64,000 nucleotides of DNA, from assembly GCF_030818655.1 (NCBI RefSeq), contig NZ_JAUTAN010000001.1, positions 3,472,001-3,536,000 of the forward strand, in the 5' to 3' direction. Positions 13,260 to 54,341 of the stretch are shown one piece after another. The DNA comes from Nocardioides zeae. GTDB lineage: Bacteria; Actinomycetota; Actinomycetes; Propionibacteriales; Nocardioidaceae. The notes beneath the pieces are model-generated. The model saw only the letters and a list, made by a program, of their open reading frames with translations. It was not told the origin of the DNA and did not search any database. Within the stretch, counting starts at the first letter, position 1, and every line of letters begins with the position of its first letter. Position numbers and translations under genes: made by a program.

Positions 13260-14351
13260 TCACGCCCCGGTCAGCCCCGGCAGCACCGCGGGGGTCGGGT
13301 GGTGCGCGACGCCCGCGTGCGGGTCGCGCGCGGCGACGCCCTCCACCCACGGCCCCACGTGCACCGTCGCCGCGACGAGCTTCGGCACCCCGTGGAGCAG
13401 GGCGTGCTGCGCCTCGTGGGCGAGGTCGTGCGCCGCCGCCAGGTCGAGGCCGGGGTCGGCGAGCACCGCCACCTCGGCGCGGAGCCGGTGCCCGGTCCAG
13501 CGCAGCCGGAGGTCCTCCACGCCCCGTACCCCCTCCACCGCCCTCAGCGACCGCAGGGCCGCGTCGGTCAGCGCCGGGTCGACGGCGTCGAGGAGCCGGC
13601 CGAGCACGTCACGGGCGGCGCCCACGAGCACGACGAGGATCATCGCCGTGATGACGAGGCCGACCACGGGGTCGGCGGCCGGCACGCCGAGCATCACGCC
13701 GACGGCGCCGACGAGCACCGCCAGCGACGTGAACCCGTCGGTGCGCGCGTGGTGGCCGTCCGCGACGAGCGCGGCCGAGCCGATGCGCCGTCCGGTGCGG
13801 ATCCGGTAGGCCGCCACCGCCTCGTTCCCCACGAACCCGATGAGGCCCGCGACCGCGACGGCCACCGGCGCCTCGACGGTCCGCGGGTGCAGCAGCCGGT
13901 CGATGCTCTGCCAGCCGGCGACCACCGCGGAGAGCGCGATCATCGCGACGACGAAGAGACCGGCGAGGTCCTCGGCACGCCCGAACCCGTAGGTGAAGCG
14001 CCGCGTCGGCGCCCGGCGCCCGAGGAGGAACGCGATCCACAGCGGCACCGCCGTGAGCGCGTCGGAGAAGTTGTGGACGGTGTCGGCCAGCAGCGCGACC
14101 GACCCCGTGAACGCGACGACGACCGCCTGCGCCAGCGCCGTCGCCAGCAGCACGGCCAGGCTGATCTTCAGCGTGCGGATCCCGACGGCGCTCGCCTCCA
14201 GCGCCGCGTCGAGGGAGTCGGCCGGGTCGTGGCTGTGCGGCCGCACGGCGTGGGCGAGGCGGGCGCGCCACCCGGGACGCGCCGGCCCGTGACCGTGACC
14301 GTGACCGTGGCCGTGACCGTGGCCGTGACCGTGGCCGTGGCCCGCGCTCAC
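13260..14351 (-). CDS. Cation diffusion facilitator (CDF) metal exporter
   Basis: 363 residues. The N-terminus is a run of about ten His-Gly pairs, a likely metal-collecting tail, encoded by a hexanucleotide microsatellite. Six spans follow, with the paired zinc-site motifs LLADTVHNFSDALTAV (span 2) and ADGHHARTDGFTSLAV (span 5), then a ferredoxin-like cytoplasmic domain (residues ~270-345). CDF proteins export Zn, Co, Fe or Ni by proton antiport. The gene overlaps the upstream ArsR-type repressor by four bases, so metal-induced co-expression is expected. The C-terminal tail is also His-containing. Confidence 0.88.
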   Translation of the reverse strand: MSAGHGHGHGHGHGHGHGHGHGPARPGWRARLAHAVRPHSHDPADSLDAALEASAVGIRTLKISLAVLLATALAQAVVVAFTGSVALLADTVHNFSDALTAVPLWIAFLLGRRAPTRRFTYGFGRAEDLAGLFVVAMIALSAVVAGWQSIDRLLHPRTVEAPVAVAVAGLIGFVGNEAVAAYRIRTGRRIGSAALVADGHHARTDGFTSLAVLVGAVGVMLGVPAADPVVGLVITAMILVVLVGAARDVLGRLLDAVDPALTDAALRSLRAVEGVRGVEDLRLRWTGHRLRAEVAVLADPGLDLAAAHDLAHEAQHALLHGVPKLVAATVHVGPWVEGVAARDPHAGVAHHPTPAVLPGLTGA

Positions 14352-32960: not shown

Positions 32961-34489
32961 CGATGGACCCGAACAGCCCCGAGCGCTTCGCCGACGACGC
33001 GCGCCGCTACCGCCTCGACGCGCGCGTCGCGACCGGCGGCATGGGGGAGGTGTGGCGCGCGACCGACACCGTGCTCGGTCGTGTCGTCGCGGTCAAGATC
33101 CTCAAGGCGGAGTACGCCGACGACCCCACCTTCCGCGGACGCTTCGAGACCGAGGCCCGCAACGCCGCCGCGCTCTTCCACCCCAACGTGGCCGGCATCT
33201 TCGACTTCGGCCAGTCGGCGACGTCCGACGGGTCGGGCTCGACGCGGCCGTACCTCGTCATGGAGCTCGTCGACGGCCAGCCGCTCTCGGCGCTGCTGCG
33301 CCCCGACCAGCCGATGGACCCGGCGATCGTCGTCGACATCATGGCCCAGGCCGCGGACGGCATCGGCGCCGCGCACCGCGCCGGCATCGTGCACCGCGAC
33401 GTGAAGCCCGCGAACCTGCTGGTGACGCCGGACCGCACCGTGAAGATCACCGACTTCGGCATCGCCCGGGCGGCCGACGGGCTGGCGCTCACCCAGACCG
33501 GCATGGTCATGGGCACGCCGCAGTACATCTCGCCCGAGCAGGCGCAGGGCATGACGGCCGGACCGGCCGCCGACGTCTACTCGCTCGGCGTCGTCGCCTT
33601 CGAGTGCCTCGCCGGCCGGCGCCCGTTCGTCGCCGAGACGGCCGTGGCCACCGCCCTGGCCCACCTCCGCGACCCCGTGCCCGACCTGCCGGGGAACGTG
33701 CCGCCGGGGCTCGCGAGCGTCGTACGGCGCGCGATGGCCAAGAAGCCGGAGGAGCGGTTCGCCGACGGGTCCGAGCTCGCGCGCGCCCTGCGCGACCCCT
33801 CGTCGGTCGCGGCGCCCGTCGCCGCACCGGCCGAGCCCGCACCGACCCAGGCCACGCAGGTGCTGGGGGGCGCGGCGGTCCCGGCCGCCGCGGCCGCTGC
33901 CACCGCGGTCCCGCCCACCGGGGCCGCCGCCGTCGTCACCGAGGAGACGACCGAGCCCGACGAGCCCCGCAGGAAGCCGGTGCTGCCGTGGGTGGCGGGC
34001 GTGCTCGCCCTGCTGCTCGTCGCCGCGCTCGTCTGGATCTTCGTCGCGACGGGCGGCGGGGACGACGAGGACCCGGTCGCGCCGCCGACGGAGACCTCCT
34101 CCGCGCCGCCGCCGAGCTCGACGACCTCGGAGCCCACGACGTCGGAGCCCACGAGCGAGACGACCTCGACGGGTCCGGAGACGTTCGACCTCGACGTCGA
34201 CTCCTACCGCGGGCGGAACGTCAACGAGGTGCGCGACGAGCTGCGGGACCAGTTCGGCCTCGAGGTCACGCGGGAGGAGATCGAGAACGACGGCTCCCAG
34301 GTGCCCAACACCGTCAGCGACATCATCCCGTCGTCCGGCCTCACCGAGGGCGACGCGGTGACGGTCCGCTTCTGGGGCCCCGAGCCGGAGCCCGAGCCGA
34401 CCGAGACCCAGCCGACCGAGACCGAGCCGACGGAGACCGAGCCGACCCTGCCCGTCCCGACCGACACCGCGACCACCGAAGCACCGTGA
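32957..34489 (+). CDS. pknA: Ser/Thr protein kinase, PknA-like, with one PASTA-like repeat
   Basis: 510 residues. Kinase domain 17-280 with glycine loop ATGGMGEVW, Lys47 in VVAVKIL, catalytic HRDVKPANLL (~145), ITDFGIARA (~165) and the activation loop GLALTQTGMVMGTPQYISPEQ. A Pro/Ala linker precedes a membrane span near 343-362 (WVAGVLALLLVAALVWIFVA). The external part holds Thr/Ser/Pro stretches and a PASTA-like module (SYRGRNVNEVRDELRDQFGL ... VSDIIPSSGLTEGDAVTVRF), which mycobacterial PknA lacks. GTG 32957 overlaps the pbpA stop. Phosphorylates cell-division and wall enzymes. Confidence 0.9.
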   Translation: MTMDPNSPERFADDARRYRLDARVATGGMGEVWRATDTVLGRVVAVKILKAEYADDPTFRGRFETEARNAAALFHPNVAGIFDFGQSATSDGSGSTRPYLVMELVDGQPLSALLRPDQPMDPAIVVDIMAQAADGIGAAHRAGIVHRDVKPANLLVTPDRTVKITDFGIARAADGLALTQTGMVMGTPQYISPEQAQGMTAGPAADVYSLGVVAFECLAGRRPFVAETAVATALAHLRDPVPDLPGNVPPGLASVVRRAMAKKPEERFADGSELARALRDPSSVAAPVAAPAEPAPTQATQVLGGAAVPAAAAAATAVPPTGAAAVVTEETTEPDEPRRKPVLPWVAGVLALLLVAALVWIFVATGGGDDEDPVAPPTETSSAPPPSSTTSEPTTSEPTSETTSTGPETFDLDVDSYRGRNVNEVRDELRDQFGLEVTREEIENDGSQVPNTVSDIIPSSGLTEGDAVTVRFWGPEPEPEPTETQPTETEPTETEPTLPVPTDTATTEAP

Positions 34490-42989: not shown

Positions 42990-43028
42990 CCGACGGGCGG
43001 CAGGACTCGAGGTCCCGCCGCCCGTCGG
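42990..43028. terminator. Hairpin near the end of the aldolase operon
   Basis: CCGACGGGCGGC (42990-43001) pairs with GCCGCCCGTCGG (43017-43028), and inside it GGAC pairs with GTCC around a short TCGAG loop. It is about 65 bases past the minus-strand aldolase stop, with the 13-bp tandem repeats in between. Confidence 0.65.
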
Positions 43029-43079
43029 CGTCGGTGCGCGGCGTCGGTGTGCGGCGTCGGTGTGCGGCGTCGGTGTGCG
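43028..43079. repeat. Four tandem 13-bp repeats
   Basis: The unit GCGTCGGTGTGCG occurs three times exactly (43041-43079), with one diverged copy before it (43028-43040). A likely slippage product downstream of the aldolase gene. Confidence 0.8.
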
Positions 43080-43092
43080 GCGAGGCCGCGGC

Positions 43093-51147: not shown

Positions 51148-51909
51148 TCAGGAGAGCGCGACCGGTCCGTCCGCGGCCGCGTCGAGCGAGCGCGACGTGT
51201 CCTTGAGCCGCACGCCCGACTCCCCCAGCTCGCGCGCGCCGGCCACGAGGGCGTCGACGATGCGGGCGGCGTGGTCGTGGTCGAGCCCGTCGGGCGGGTG
51301 CACGTTGGAGATGCAGTTCCGCTCGGAGTCGCGGCGCCCGGGGCGCGGGTGGTGGGTCAGGTAGATGCCGAGGCTGCTCGGCACGGACAGGCCGGGCCGC
51401 TCGCCCACGAGCACCAGCAGCGTCTCGACGCCGAGGTGGGCGCCCACGTGGTCGCCGAGGGCGACGCGGGCGTTGGTGGCGACGACGAGCGGCGCCAGCG
51501 AGTAGCGCGGCGTCAGGCGCTCGACCAGCGCGGCGACCAGCGCGGGCGCGTGGTCGGTCAGCGCCTGGCCCGAGAGCCCGTCGGCGAGCACGATCCCGAT
51601 GTCGGCCCCGGTGTCCCGCGGGAGGTGGTCGAGCTCGCGGGGCTGACGTCCGAGGTCGGGGCGGCGCAGGTACTCGCCGCGGTCGCCGACCCGGCTGGCC
51701 ACCAGCAGCGGCGTACCGAGGCCACGGGACTCGAGGTCCGCCACCAGGGCGTCGATGTCGACGGGCACGTGCACGGCGTCGCGCGCCTGGGCGTGGGCCG
51801 CGCGGAAGGCGAGCACGTCGCCCAGCGCCATCGTGTCGCCGGCGCGGCCGAGGCCGATCCGCGACTGGGTGGTGCGCCGGAGGGCGGCCCAGAAGTCGTC
51901 GTCGCTCAT
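51148..51909 (-). CDS. eutC: Ethanolamine ammonia-lyase small subunit
   Basis: 253 residues. Typical EutC: FWAALRRTTQSRIGLGRAGD, VLAFRAAHAQARDAVHVPVD, adenosylcobalamin-site parts GADIGIVLADGLSGQAL and LVVATNARVALGDHVG, VLVGERPGLSVPSSLGIYLT, and the two conserved Cys/Asn of ERNCISNVHPPDGL. With EutB it converts ethanolamine to acetaldehyde and ammonia using adenosylcobalamin. It overlaps eutB by ATGA. Shorter N-terminus than the E. coli protein, which lacks the encapsulation extension needed for microcompartments; none is encoded here. Confidence 0.93.
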   Translation of the reverse strand: MSDDDFWAALRRTTQSRIGLGRAGDTMALGDVLAFRAAHAQARDAVHVPVDIDALVADLESRGLGTPLLVASRVGDRGEYLRRPDLGRQPRELDHLPRDTGADIGIVLADGLSGQALTDHAPALVAALVERLTPRYSLAPLVVATNARVALGDHVGAHLGVETLLVLVGERPGLSVPSSLGIYLTHHPRPGRRDSERNCISNVHPPDGLDHDHAARIVDALVAGARELGESGVRLKDTSRSLDAAADGPVALS

Positions 51910-53318
51910 GCGCCGGCTCCCAGCGTGCGGAGCACCGAGGTGCTCGGGTCGACGGGCAGCACCCGCCCGCTCTCCGACATGAGGCCGCAGCGGGTCAGCC
52001 ACTCCTCGAACTCCGGCGCGGGGCGCGTGCCGAACAGGTCGCGGGCGTAGAGGGCGTCGTGGAAGCCGAGGCTCTGGTAACCGAGCATCACGTCGTCGGC
52101 GCCCGGCACGCAGATGACGAAGCCGACGCGGGCCGCGGCGAGGAGCGTCAGCAGCACGTCCATGTCGTCCTGGTCGGCCTCGGTGTGGTTGGTGTAGCAG
52201 ACGTCGGCGCCCATCTGCAGGCCCAGCAGCTTGGCGCAGAAGTGGTCCTCGAGACCGGCGCGGACGACCTGCTTGCCGTCGTAGAGGTACTCGGGACCGA
52301 TGAACCCGACCACCGTGTTGATGAGGAACGGGTCGAGGTCGCGGGCCACGGCGTACGCCCGGGCCTCCAGCGTCTGCTGGTCGACGGGACGCCCCTCGGT
52401 GCCGAGGTGGGCGTCGGCGGAGAGCACGGAGCCCTGGCCGGTCTCGAGGTACATGACGTTGTCGCCGACGGTGCCGCGGCGTAGCGAGCGCGCGGCCTCG
52501 TTGGCCTCCCGGAGCAGCTCGAGCGTGACGCCGAAGCCCTCGTTGGCGCCCTGCGTGCCGGCGATGGACTGGAAGACGAGGTCGACCGGGGCGCCCGCCT
52601 CGATGAGCCCGATCGAGGTGGTGACGTGGGTGAGCACGCACGACTGGGTCGGGATCTCGTAGCGCTGCCGCACGTCGTCGAGGAGGTGCAGCAGGTCGCT
52701 GACCGCCTGTGGGGAGTCGGTCGCCGGGTTGATGCCGATGACCGCGTCGCCCGCGCCGAGCAGGAGCCCGTCGAGCGTGGCCGCCGTGATGCCGCGGGGG
52801 TCGTCGGTCGGGTGGTTGGGCTGCAGCCGGGTGGAGAGGCGTCCCGGGAGGCCGACGGTCGTGCGGAACGCCGTCGTCACCTGCACGGCGCGCGCGACGG
52901 TGACGAGGTCCTGGTTGCGCATCAGCTTGCTGACCGCGGCGACCATCTCGGGCGTCAGCGCCCAGCGGATGCCCGCCAGGCGCTCGGCGGCGTCGTCGCG
53001 GGTGACGGTGTCGAGGAGCCAGTCCCGCAGGCCGCCGACGGTGAGGTGGGAGATCTGCCGGTACGCCGCGGCGTCGTGCTGCTCGAGGACGAGGCGCGTG
53101 ACGTCGTCGGTCTCGGCGGGCACGAGCAGCTCGGTGAGGAAGAGGTCGAGCGGCACGTCGGCCAGCGCCCACTGCGCGGCGGCCCGCTCGGCGTCGGTCT
53201 CCGCCGCGCACCCGGCGAGCTCGTCGCCCGAGCGGCGCGGCGACGCCTTGGCCATGAGGTCGACGAGGTGGCCGAAGGTGTAGGTCGTCGGCCCGAGGGT
53301 CTGTCGGAACACGGTCAC
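51906..53318 (-). CDS. eutB: Ethanolamine ammonia-lyase large subunit
   Basis: 470 residues, the TIM-barrel catalytic subunit. Recognisable are the opening YTFGHLVDLMAKASPRRSGD, LRDWLLDTVTRDD, RLSTRLQPNHPTDDPRG, DAVIGINPATDSPQAV, PVDLVFQSIAGTQGANEGFG, MYLETGQGSVLSADAHLG and GADVCYTNHTEADQDDMDVL. GTG 53318 follows a TACGGT -10-like box by six bases, so expression may be leaderless. No eutA reactivase, permease or shell gene is nearby. Immediately upstream is the 31-bp repeat array. Confidence 0.93.
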   Translation of the reverse strand: MTVFRQTLGPTTYTFGHLVDLMAKASPRRSGDELAGCAAETDAERAAAQWALADVPLDLFLTELLVPAETDDVTRLVLEQHDAAAYRQISHLTVGGLRDWLLDTVTRDDAAERLAGIRWALTPEMVAAVSKLMRNQDLVTVARAVQVTTAFRTTVGLPGRLSTRLQPNHPTDDPRGITAATLDGLLLGAGDAVIGINPATDSPQAVSDLLHLLDDVRQRYEIPTQSCVLTHVTTSIGLIEAGAPVDLVFQSIAGTQGANEGFGVTLELLREANEAARSLRRGTVGDNVMYLETGQGSVLSADAHLGTEGRPVDQQTLEARAYAVARDLDPFLINTVVGFIGPEYLYDGKQVVRAGLEDHFCAKLLGLQMGADVCYTNHTEADQDDMDVLLTLLAAARVGFVICVPGADDVMLGYQSLGFHDALYARDLFGTRPAPEFEEWLTRCGLMSESGRVLPVDPSTSVLRTLGAGA

Positions 53319-53345
53319 CCTGCGACCGTAGGCCGGTCCTGTCAC

Positions 53346-53385
53346 CCGCGTGTTACACGCGGCAGTCCATGCGTGGATCCATGCA
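53346..53385. promoter_or_regulatory. Two short dyads upstream of eutB
   Basis: CCGCGTG-TTA-CACGCGG (53346-53362) is a perfect 7-bp inverted repeat, and TGCGTGGATCCATGCA (53370-53385) is symmetric at 14 of 16 positions. They lie just upstream of the predicted eutB -10 box, where a repressor or activator would bind. Confidence 0.45.
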
Positions 53386-53414
53386 CCATCGGACGGGGTG
53401 CTTATGGAGGCCGC

Positions 53415-53663
53415 GTCGAGTTGGGTCGGACGGCGCGGCGTGTGCGTCGAGTTGGGTCGGACGGCGCGGCGTGAGCGTCGAGTTGGGTCGGACGGCGCGG
53501 CGTGAGCGTCGAGTTGGGTTCTCCGGCGGCACGAGCGCGAACTGCGCGCCGCCGTACGACCCAACTCGATGGATCTGCCGCGCCGTACAACCCAGCTCGA
53601 CGGATCTGCCGCGCCGTACAACCCAACTCGACGGCTCTGCCGCGCAGTCCGACCCAACTCGAC
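53415..53663. repeat. Head-to-head array of eight 31-bp repeats
   Basis: The 12-mer GTCGAGTTGGGT starts at 53415, 53446, 53477 and 53508 on the plus strand. Its complement ends at matching sites starting 53559, 53590, 53621 and 53652. All steps are exactly 31 bp. The conserved unit is GTCGAGTTGGGT, three variable bases, ACGGCGCGGC, then six variable bases; plus-side units end GTGAGC, minus-side units AGATCC, so each half is homogeneous and distinct. There are no spacers. The array lies between the divergent eutB and HAD genes. Confidence 0.92.
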
Positions 53664-53681
53664 GCAGGTACGGTCGCCCGC

Positions 53682-54341
53682 GTGGACCACCAGCAGCCCC
53701 CGCACCATGCCGTGTTCGACTTCGACGGGGTGCTGGTGCGGCGCGACTCGACGGTCGAGCTGCTGCGCCGCCGCTTCCGGCGGCGGCCCTGGCTCCTGCC
53801 GCTCGCGCTCGGCCCGCTGACCGCGTACGCCGCGACCATCGCCACCCCGCCCCTCCAGGCGCCCGCGTCCCGGGTCGTCGTGCGGGCCGCCCTCGCCGGC
53901 ACGACCCGCGCCCGCGTCGAGGCCTCGGGGCGGGCGCTCGGCGCCGAGCTGGCCGGCGACGACCGCTGGCGCGTCGACGCGGCCGTCGAGGCCGTCCGCG
54001 CGCACCTCGCCGAGGGCGCCGTCACCGTCGTCTCGGCGGGCCTCGACATCACGGTCCGCGCCTATCTCGACGCCCTCGACCTCCACGACGTCGCCGTCGT
54101 CGCCTCCCGCCTCGACGGCCGGCTCGGCGGGGTGCAGCTCACGGACCACACGTACGGCGCGGCCAAGGTCGTGCGCGCCGCCGCGGCCGGGCTGCACCGC
54201 TGGGACGTGGCCTACACCGACGCCGCGTCCGACTTCCCGCTGCTCGCGCCCGCCCGACGCAGGGTGCTCGTCAACGCCCGGCCCTCGGTCGTCGCCGCCG
54301 CCCGCCTCCGCTGGCCCGACGTCGAGGTCGTCACCTGGTGA
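53682..54341 (+). CDS. HAD-superfamily hydrolase (HAD-IB-like)
   Basis: 219 residues. Motif I HAVFDFDGVLVRRDSTVEL with nucleophile Asp13 and acid Asp15, motif II Ser in VTVVSAGLDITVRAYL, Lys in YGAAKVVRAA, motif IV DVAYTDAASDFPLL. The cap is a short helical insertion after residue 25. The pattern is nearest to phosphoserine phosphatase-like HAD-IB enzymes; substrate unknown. GTG 53682 follows TACGGT (53669-53674) by seven bases. It is divergent from eutBC across the repeat array and convergent with the GntR gene. Confidence 0.75.
   Translation: MDHQQPPHHAVFDFDGVLVRRDSTVELLRRRFRRRPWLLPLALGPLTAYAATIATPPLQAPASRVVVRAALAGTTRARVEASGRALGAELAGDDRWRVDAAVEAVRAHLAEGAVTVVSAGLDITVRAYLDALDLHDVAVVASRLDGRLGGVQLTDHTYGAAKVVRAAAAGLHRWDVAYTDAASDFPLLAPARRRVLVNARPSVVAAARLRWPDVEVVTW

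Follow-up and report, generated by a model that had tools for sequence, protein, structure and literature searches.

Small dispersed palindromes are common in bacteria, and their origin, their growth and the upkeep of likeness among their copies are poorly known. For REP elements, evolution by gene conversion was reportedly proposed in a 1988 review. MIRUs, actinobacterial repeats found in mycobacteria, are intergenic, tandem and oriented with the neighbouring gene, and REP13E12 is known from M. tuberculosis. The integron attC motif reads GTTRRRY; a resemblance of the repeat described below to attC was dropped by reasoning only. REPs with a CGTC tag, which have no dedicated transposase, come from five phyla with most from alpha-Proteobacteria, and rarely form clusters (PMC3733652).

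Here we describe an array of 31-bp units that lies between eutB and the gene of a HAD-like hydrolase in Nocardioides zeae, within a window (the whole stretch of DNA analysed) of 64,000 nucleotides. We compare it with further copies in the same genome (G000; chromosome of 4.38 Mb, one contig) and in two sister species (G216 and G217). The array is probably a solitary member of a dispersed palindromic family specific to the Nocardioides zeae group, whose arms have expanded in 31-bp units. No report of this repeat family was found in the literature searched.

Like REP and BIME elements, the family consists of dispersed extragenic palindromes in many copies, with head-to-head dimers lying mostly downstream of coding regions. 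It differs from them in having arms of about 25 bp, against the 8–9-bp stem and 4–5-nt loop given in the REP description, and in that the arms appear to grow as 31-bp tandem arrays. Short dispersed extragenic palindromes in head-to-head pairs near stop codons are what a classical REP or BIME mobilised by a RAYT transposase would look like. This reading is nevertheless extremely improbable: the conserved GTAG tag is absent, and the Y1_Tnp profile (PF01797) found no RAYT in any of 16 genomes (G000, G216, G217 and 13 congeners), with the control positive in 5 of 14 known genomes including E. coli.

The 31-bp unit is mostly preceded by C, giving CGTC as in the CGTC REPs, but the minimal form of the family has a 26-bp stem with CGTC paired at its foot, not the unpaired tag of the definition. 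The BOX elements of Streptococcus pneumoniae are likewise dispersed and modular, with variable inner tandem modules and an enrichment between convergent genes; in BOX, however, distinct boxA and boxC ends flank boxB(n), whereas here one unit in opposite orientations builds both arms (PMC3049150). MIRUs insert at start codons with a coupled ORF (PMC12548453), while the present element is a palindrome found mostly behind stop codons. CRISPR arrays share regular repeats of about 30 bp, but unique spacers are absent here and the 4–6 variable bases are largely common within an array. For RAYT-associated REPs, CGTC REPs, BOX, MIRU and CRISPR alike, defining features that were tested here are thus missing from the family.

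Array layout and predicted fold

The array spans 254 bp and consists of four plus-strand and then four minus-strand 31-bp units placed head to head. The plus arm (53415–53519, plus strand; core GTCGAGTTGGGTCGGACGGCGCGGC) has full units starting at 53415, 53446 and 53477 and a truncated unit at 53508–53519, while the minus arm (53545–53663, minus strand; usual core GTCGAGTTGGGTTGTACGGCGCGGC) has a truncated inner unit reaching 53570 and full units ending at 53601, 53632 and 53663. The innermost unit is truncated in both arms, so that each holds three full units and one partial, and the centre, or loop, that separates them (53520–53544) includes remnants of the truncated inner units. These starts and ends, with their constant 31-bp period, bear out the eight repeats of the initial annotation, four direct and four inverted over about 250 bp, and the units are directly adjacent with no spacers, as it had also stated. 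It further gave each half its own unit ends, GTGAGC against AGATCC; this holds in general, with one exception in each arm (plus arm GTGTGC, GTGAGC, GTGAGC; minus arm AGAGCC, AGATCC, AGATCC).

The arms (53413–53533 and 53545–53665) show 79% complementarity, with 11 nt between them. Allowing at most one mismatch, the 10-base core has 8 matches in the window, all within the array, against 3.3 expected, and none of 100 shuffles reached 8. Other short tandem repeats of the window lie at 14287–14339 (12-bp units), 34388–34469 (15-bp) and 43026–43082 (13-bp).

The plus strand of 53380–53700 is predicted to fold as one long hairpin (z = −12.7), in agreement with the very long hairpin proposed initially. 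The array itself folds strongly (z = −18.1) but its plus arm alone hardly at all (z = −1.1), and therefore the structure stems from the head-to-head layout. A search of Rfam with 53300–53760 gave sub-threshold microRNA models only, the best, a microRNA hairpin model, scoring 40.4 bits against a cut-off of 142.

The gene models come from a home-made codon-usage caller, and their starts are rough for that reason. The neighbours were confirmed as EutB and EutC on the minus strand and HAD on the plus strand, which places the array where the initial annotation had put it. The start of the eutB gene (51906–53318, minus strand) lies some 95 bp from the array, and the gene is transcribed away from it; the HAD-like hydrolase gene (53682–54341, plus strand), with its start at 53682 (GTG) or at 53712 as called, also runs away from the array. 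The gap is hence divergent, with both gene starts adjoining the array.

A dispersed family

The 12-base core has 141 exact matches in G000 (69 on the plus and 72 on the minus strand), against 0 for a reversed-pattern control, and the 25-bp core has 230 with at most two mismatches. We analysed the window and 41 further stretches of G000, taken from among the matches listed; further loci, chiefly with the older core only, may exist. All 42 loci, which were chosen for their units, carry them, and once the older core variant GTCGAGTTGTCAYGTACGCCGCGGC is included they hold 286 units (at most five mismatches). The initial annotation had proposed a search for the repeat elsewhere in the genome, taking a scatter over unrelated loci as the mark of a passive repeat, and such a scatter is what the matches show.

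Outside G000 the family is narrowly distributed. The repeat was found in 3 of 294 family genomes and in 3 of 196 genus genomes, G000 being counted in both. The exact pattern of the older core matched only Nocardioides zeae JCM 30728 (6 stretches) in the named genome collection, which may lack genomes near that of the window. The search for a phage origin of the array gave no phage match. A plasmid origin was rejected: ten plasmid records match 33–34 bases of the loop only, five of them inside Caballeronia HlyD genes, and these matches were judged to be chance. As a separate observation, a further repeated word, approximately GAAAACGCGGAC, recurs in the spacers between plus and minus arrays at four loci (L048, L055, L057 and L078).

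Comparison with sister species

At the orthologous eutB-HAD gap the element measures 97 bp in G216, 124 bp in G217 and 254 bp in G000, and the two shorter forms carry the older core. The eutB-side flank (53319–53412), on the other hand, is conserved while the array differs: of its 94 aligned bases, 88 are identical to the window in G216 and 81 in G217. These data bear directly on the proposal of a multi-site operator of eutB/eutC or of the HAD gene, in which proteins would be stacked every three helical turns. A period of 31 bp does approximate three turns, the array lies between two promoters, and all three species have units in this gap. However, the same units occur at dozens of other loci, their core and number differ between sister species next to a conserved flank, and the conservation upstream of eutB that would have supported regulation does not extend to six other Nocardioides, whose eutB orthologues have no unit within about 1.5 kb. 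The operator is accordingly a very unlikely explanation. In these six (L088–L093) the window query matches the eutB part only, which makes conservation of the HAD neighbour improbable there.

Among the options raised initially (an operator, an RNA element or a passive repeat hot spot), the last is the best supported, and the array most likely represents passive DNA rather than a switch that controls eutB. It had been added that a unit number varying between strains with no effect on transcription would point the same way; of this, the variation in number is seen, between species.

Shorter forms occur at other loci as well. Array-bearing loci among those fetched from G216 or G217 match 29 of the 42 G000 loci, a figure in which conserved presence is over-sampled since the sister loci were fetched for carrying units. 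Of the 13 unmatched loci, 10 could be placed in G216, where three have no units (L035, L037 and L048), one has a remnant (L038) and six have shorter forms. The simplest of these is found at L070, where the three units per arm of G000 correspond to a perfect 26-bp hairpin in G216 (−54.6 kcal/mol, z −10.2). Mean units per arm amount to 4.03 in G000, 2.60 in G216 and 2.09 in G217, and spacing is exactly 31 bp in 200/215, 60/64 and 23/37 cases, respectively. The three unit-free G216 sites, which could be losses instead of original absence, show by eye no clear target-site duplication of the kind left by a MITE; the transposase search covered PF01797 only. At one locus an array is present in all three species (L039 in G000, L074 in G216, L137 in G217), with a DUF222 gene in G216 only.

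The two cores are unevenly distributed as well. The ratio of newer to older core is 234:49 in G000, 94:9 in G216 and 24:46 in G217, the older core making up 49/286, 9/104 and 46/71 of the units. In 53 G000 arrays of at least three units, the older core stands in the last position 23 times, in the first position 7 times and in an inner position 9 times. Different loci of G000 share a mean core identity of 0.864 (0.87 in a separate calculation), whereas between G000 and G216 it is 0.836 for orthologous and 0.817 for non-orthologous arms. Cores are thus more alike within a genome than between orthologous sites, a pattern which, as far as sequence comparison can tell, is concerted evolution. Gene conversion would account for it most simply; alternatively, one binding protein common to the sites may exert the same selection on all of them. 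The four variable bases have an identity of 0.72 within arrays and 0.44 between arrays, which fits local tandem duplication. The 31-bp step, on the other hand, is kept at dozens of loci despite differing last 4–6 bases, a constancy that simple slippage fails to explain.

These comparisons suggest the following course for the passive family. The ancestral element would be a near-perfect REP-like palindrome of about 50–57 bp, its arm measuring about 25 bp, which non-coding gaps tolerate and which as a rule begins 2–15 nt past a stop codon. Tandem duplication of a 31-bp unit (the 25-bp core plus about 6 bp), by slippage or unequal exchange, would then lengthen each arm and turn the palindrome into two head-to-head arrays, a growth that seems to have gone furthest in the lineage of the window. 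Recombination in the form of gene conversion could carry variants between loci of one genome, whereby a newer core (GTTGGGT..CGGCGCGGC) would have taken the place of most copies of an older one (GTTGTCA..CGCCGCG), at the eutB-HAD gap in both arms. We infer the mobility and the conversion of the repeat from sequence, and the order of palindrome first and arm expansion later from a comparison that has no outgroup to fix the direction. The initial annotation, in which the halves were amplified separately after inversion, comes close to this course, but the comparisons favour a short palindrome as the start and not an inverted array.

Position relative to genes

Arrays of at least two units follow a rule of position. 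Among the loci fetched, a same-strand gene ends 0–15 nt upstream of 38/57 arrays in G000, 16/31 in G216 and 15/25 in G217 (three arrays, two in G000 and one in G216, that overlap a called gene end at −27 nt are excluded from the 38, 16 and 15), against 4.5%, 5.8% and 6.3% of random non-coding positions in the same loci. Plus units precede minus units in all 33 clusters that have both orientations. Clusters with no DUF222 neighbour lie in convergent, codirectional and divergent gaps 18, 9 and 3 times in G000 (array-free gaps of the same loci: 18, 108 and 21), 7, 5 and 4 times in G217 (array-free: 12, 55 and 12) and 3, 7 and 3 times in G216 (array-free: 19, 69 and 15). The window copy is therefore atypical, as one of the three divergent-gap clusters among the G000 loci fetched. 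Pairs of arrays 0.3–1.5 kb apart were considered as mobile cassettes flanking a gene and rejected, most pairs being explained by each array having its own upstream stop codon.

Such a rule would also be expected if the palindrome were a selected element of gene 3' ends, that is, a bidirectional terminator, a stabiliser of mRNA 3' ends or a REP-like translational brake, of which the arrays would be longer versions. In its favour stand the proximity to stop codons, the convergent excess in G000 (18/30 clusters against 18/147 array-free gaps) and G217 (7/16 against 12/79), and the very stable hairpin of the minimal form. E. coli REPs at most 15 nt from a stop codon stall ribosomes (PMC12306157). 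Against it, the loci fetched from G216 show no convergent excess (3/13 against 19/103), and the one minimal form examined, the L070 site of G216, is followed by no T-run and hence by no U-tract of an intrinsic terminator, although U-less terminators are possible. Five same-orientation arrays folded alone gave z-scores of −0.2 to −4.4, slightly better than shuffles; units are missing from three orthologous G216 gaps, the repeat finds no match in 193 of 196 genus genomes, and the window copy lies between divergent starts with no called gene end. We regard selection at 3' ends as a possible explanation, though a minority one. A family role at gene 3' ends is possible, and so, judging from position and predicted fold, is the RNA element of the initial annotation for copies just 3' of genes, an annotation whose interpretation as a whole is partly supported.

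DUF222 neighbours

Among the loci fetched, a DUF222-like gene follows directly behind the multi-unit array in 17/57 cases in G000, 15/31 in G216 and 9/25 in G217. Nine of ten such neighbours scanned exceed the Pfam cut-off for DUF222, and the sequence of the tenth (L059) relates it to the others. Multi-copy DUF222 genes directly behind arrays recall REP13E12, with the difference that arrays of the present family also stand alone, as in the window. The repeats could be cis partners that DUF222 proteins (13E12-type, HNH-like) bind or cleave, and cutting by these proteins would drive conversion and growth in a homing-like pair that needs no RAYT. We hold this reading to be tentative and rather unlikely, its DUF222 link being a lead and not a demonstration.

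Several observations speak for such a partnership. The best DUF222 paralogue of the own genome is closer than the same-locus orthologue in 22 of 24 comparisons, which set the best of several proteins against one, although in these 22 the other genome's best protein, too, is lower. By eye, 47 of 49 DUF222 proteins carry the HNH-looking C-terminal words RRHHR or CDQHH, which define two subfamilies (the other two break off where the fetched stretch ends). In the congener G189, which has no 31-bp repeat, a different tandem array of 22-bp units, approximately CAGTCACTTTYGCACCAYCGAC, precedes 9 of 12 DUF222 genes in 2–3 copies (L153–L163). Four of these arrays begin no more than about 10 nt from the stop codon that precedes them. 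The 22-bp unit was found in 4 of 147 genus genomes and is absent from G000. It shares 14 of 22 bases with the 31-bp core, a score reached by 23 of 1500 shuffles, so that a homology of the two, judged on this alignment, is suggestive only.

Other results weaken the case. A stricter HNH motif matched none of the 49 proteins, the Pfam HNH profile (PF01844) appeared below its cut-off in 2 of 6 (E 0.04 and 0.09), and NCBIfam gave no name for the five tried. Mean paralogue identity is barely above that between genomes (0.671 against 0.651 in group 1). In each genome a DUF222 gene is missing directly behind more than half of the arrays, among them the array at the window's site in all three species. 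DUF222 itself was present in all 14 Nocardioides genomes searched, the number of matches per genome ranging from 2 to 29. The idea that DUF222 genes carry such arrays in general was rejected, since at 40 loci of six other congeners the arrays are absent (two low-complexity matches and one weak 17-bp match), in a survey that placed several starts by default close to the profile match and may have missed a leader.

Two side observations concern the DUF222 genes themselves. The DnaA-box-like word TCCACAG/CTGTGGA occurs in 66 of 109 DUF222 leaders and in 32 of 464 leaders of neighbouring genes across 11 Nocardioides genomes, a rough contrast given that copies within a genome are related and that some DUF222 leaders span 350 bases and controls at most 250; it is found in 0/10 DUF222 leaders of G230 and 0/4 of G170. 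Clusters of DnaA boxes as the purpose of the array tails were rejected, boxes of the form searched lying near only 4 of 69 multi-unit arrays. A stretch of G217 (L152, 2484–3933) in which no gene was called is perhaps a decayed copy, the matched loci L031 and L128 carrying a DUF222 gene.

Significance

The three sister species present different stages at the same addresses, from no element through a single perfect palindrome and short arms to long head-to-head arrays, so that growth and the genome-wide replacement of cores can be traced step by step.

A wider possibility, which we consider doubtful, is that multi-copy DUF222 proteins with HNH-like ends have, in at least two Nocardioides lineages, different arrays (31-bp and 22-bp) as their cis partners; the proteins would recognise the units, and their cuts would lead to fixed-step growth and conversion. 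If so, repeat and nuclease would co-evolve genome-wide as a homing-like counterpart of REP and RAYT, and solitary arrays such as that of the window would be non-autonomous copies. Were the DUF222 link true, it would hint at what a widespread protein family of actinobacteria does and add a second kind of enzyme–repeat partnership to that of REP and RAYT.
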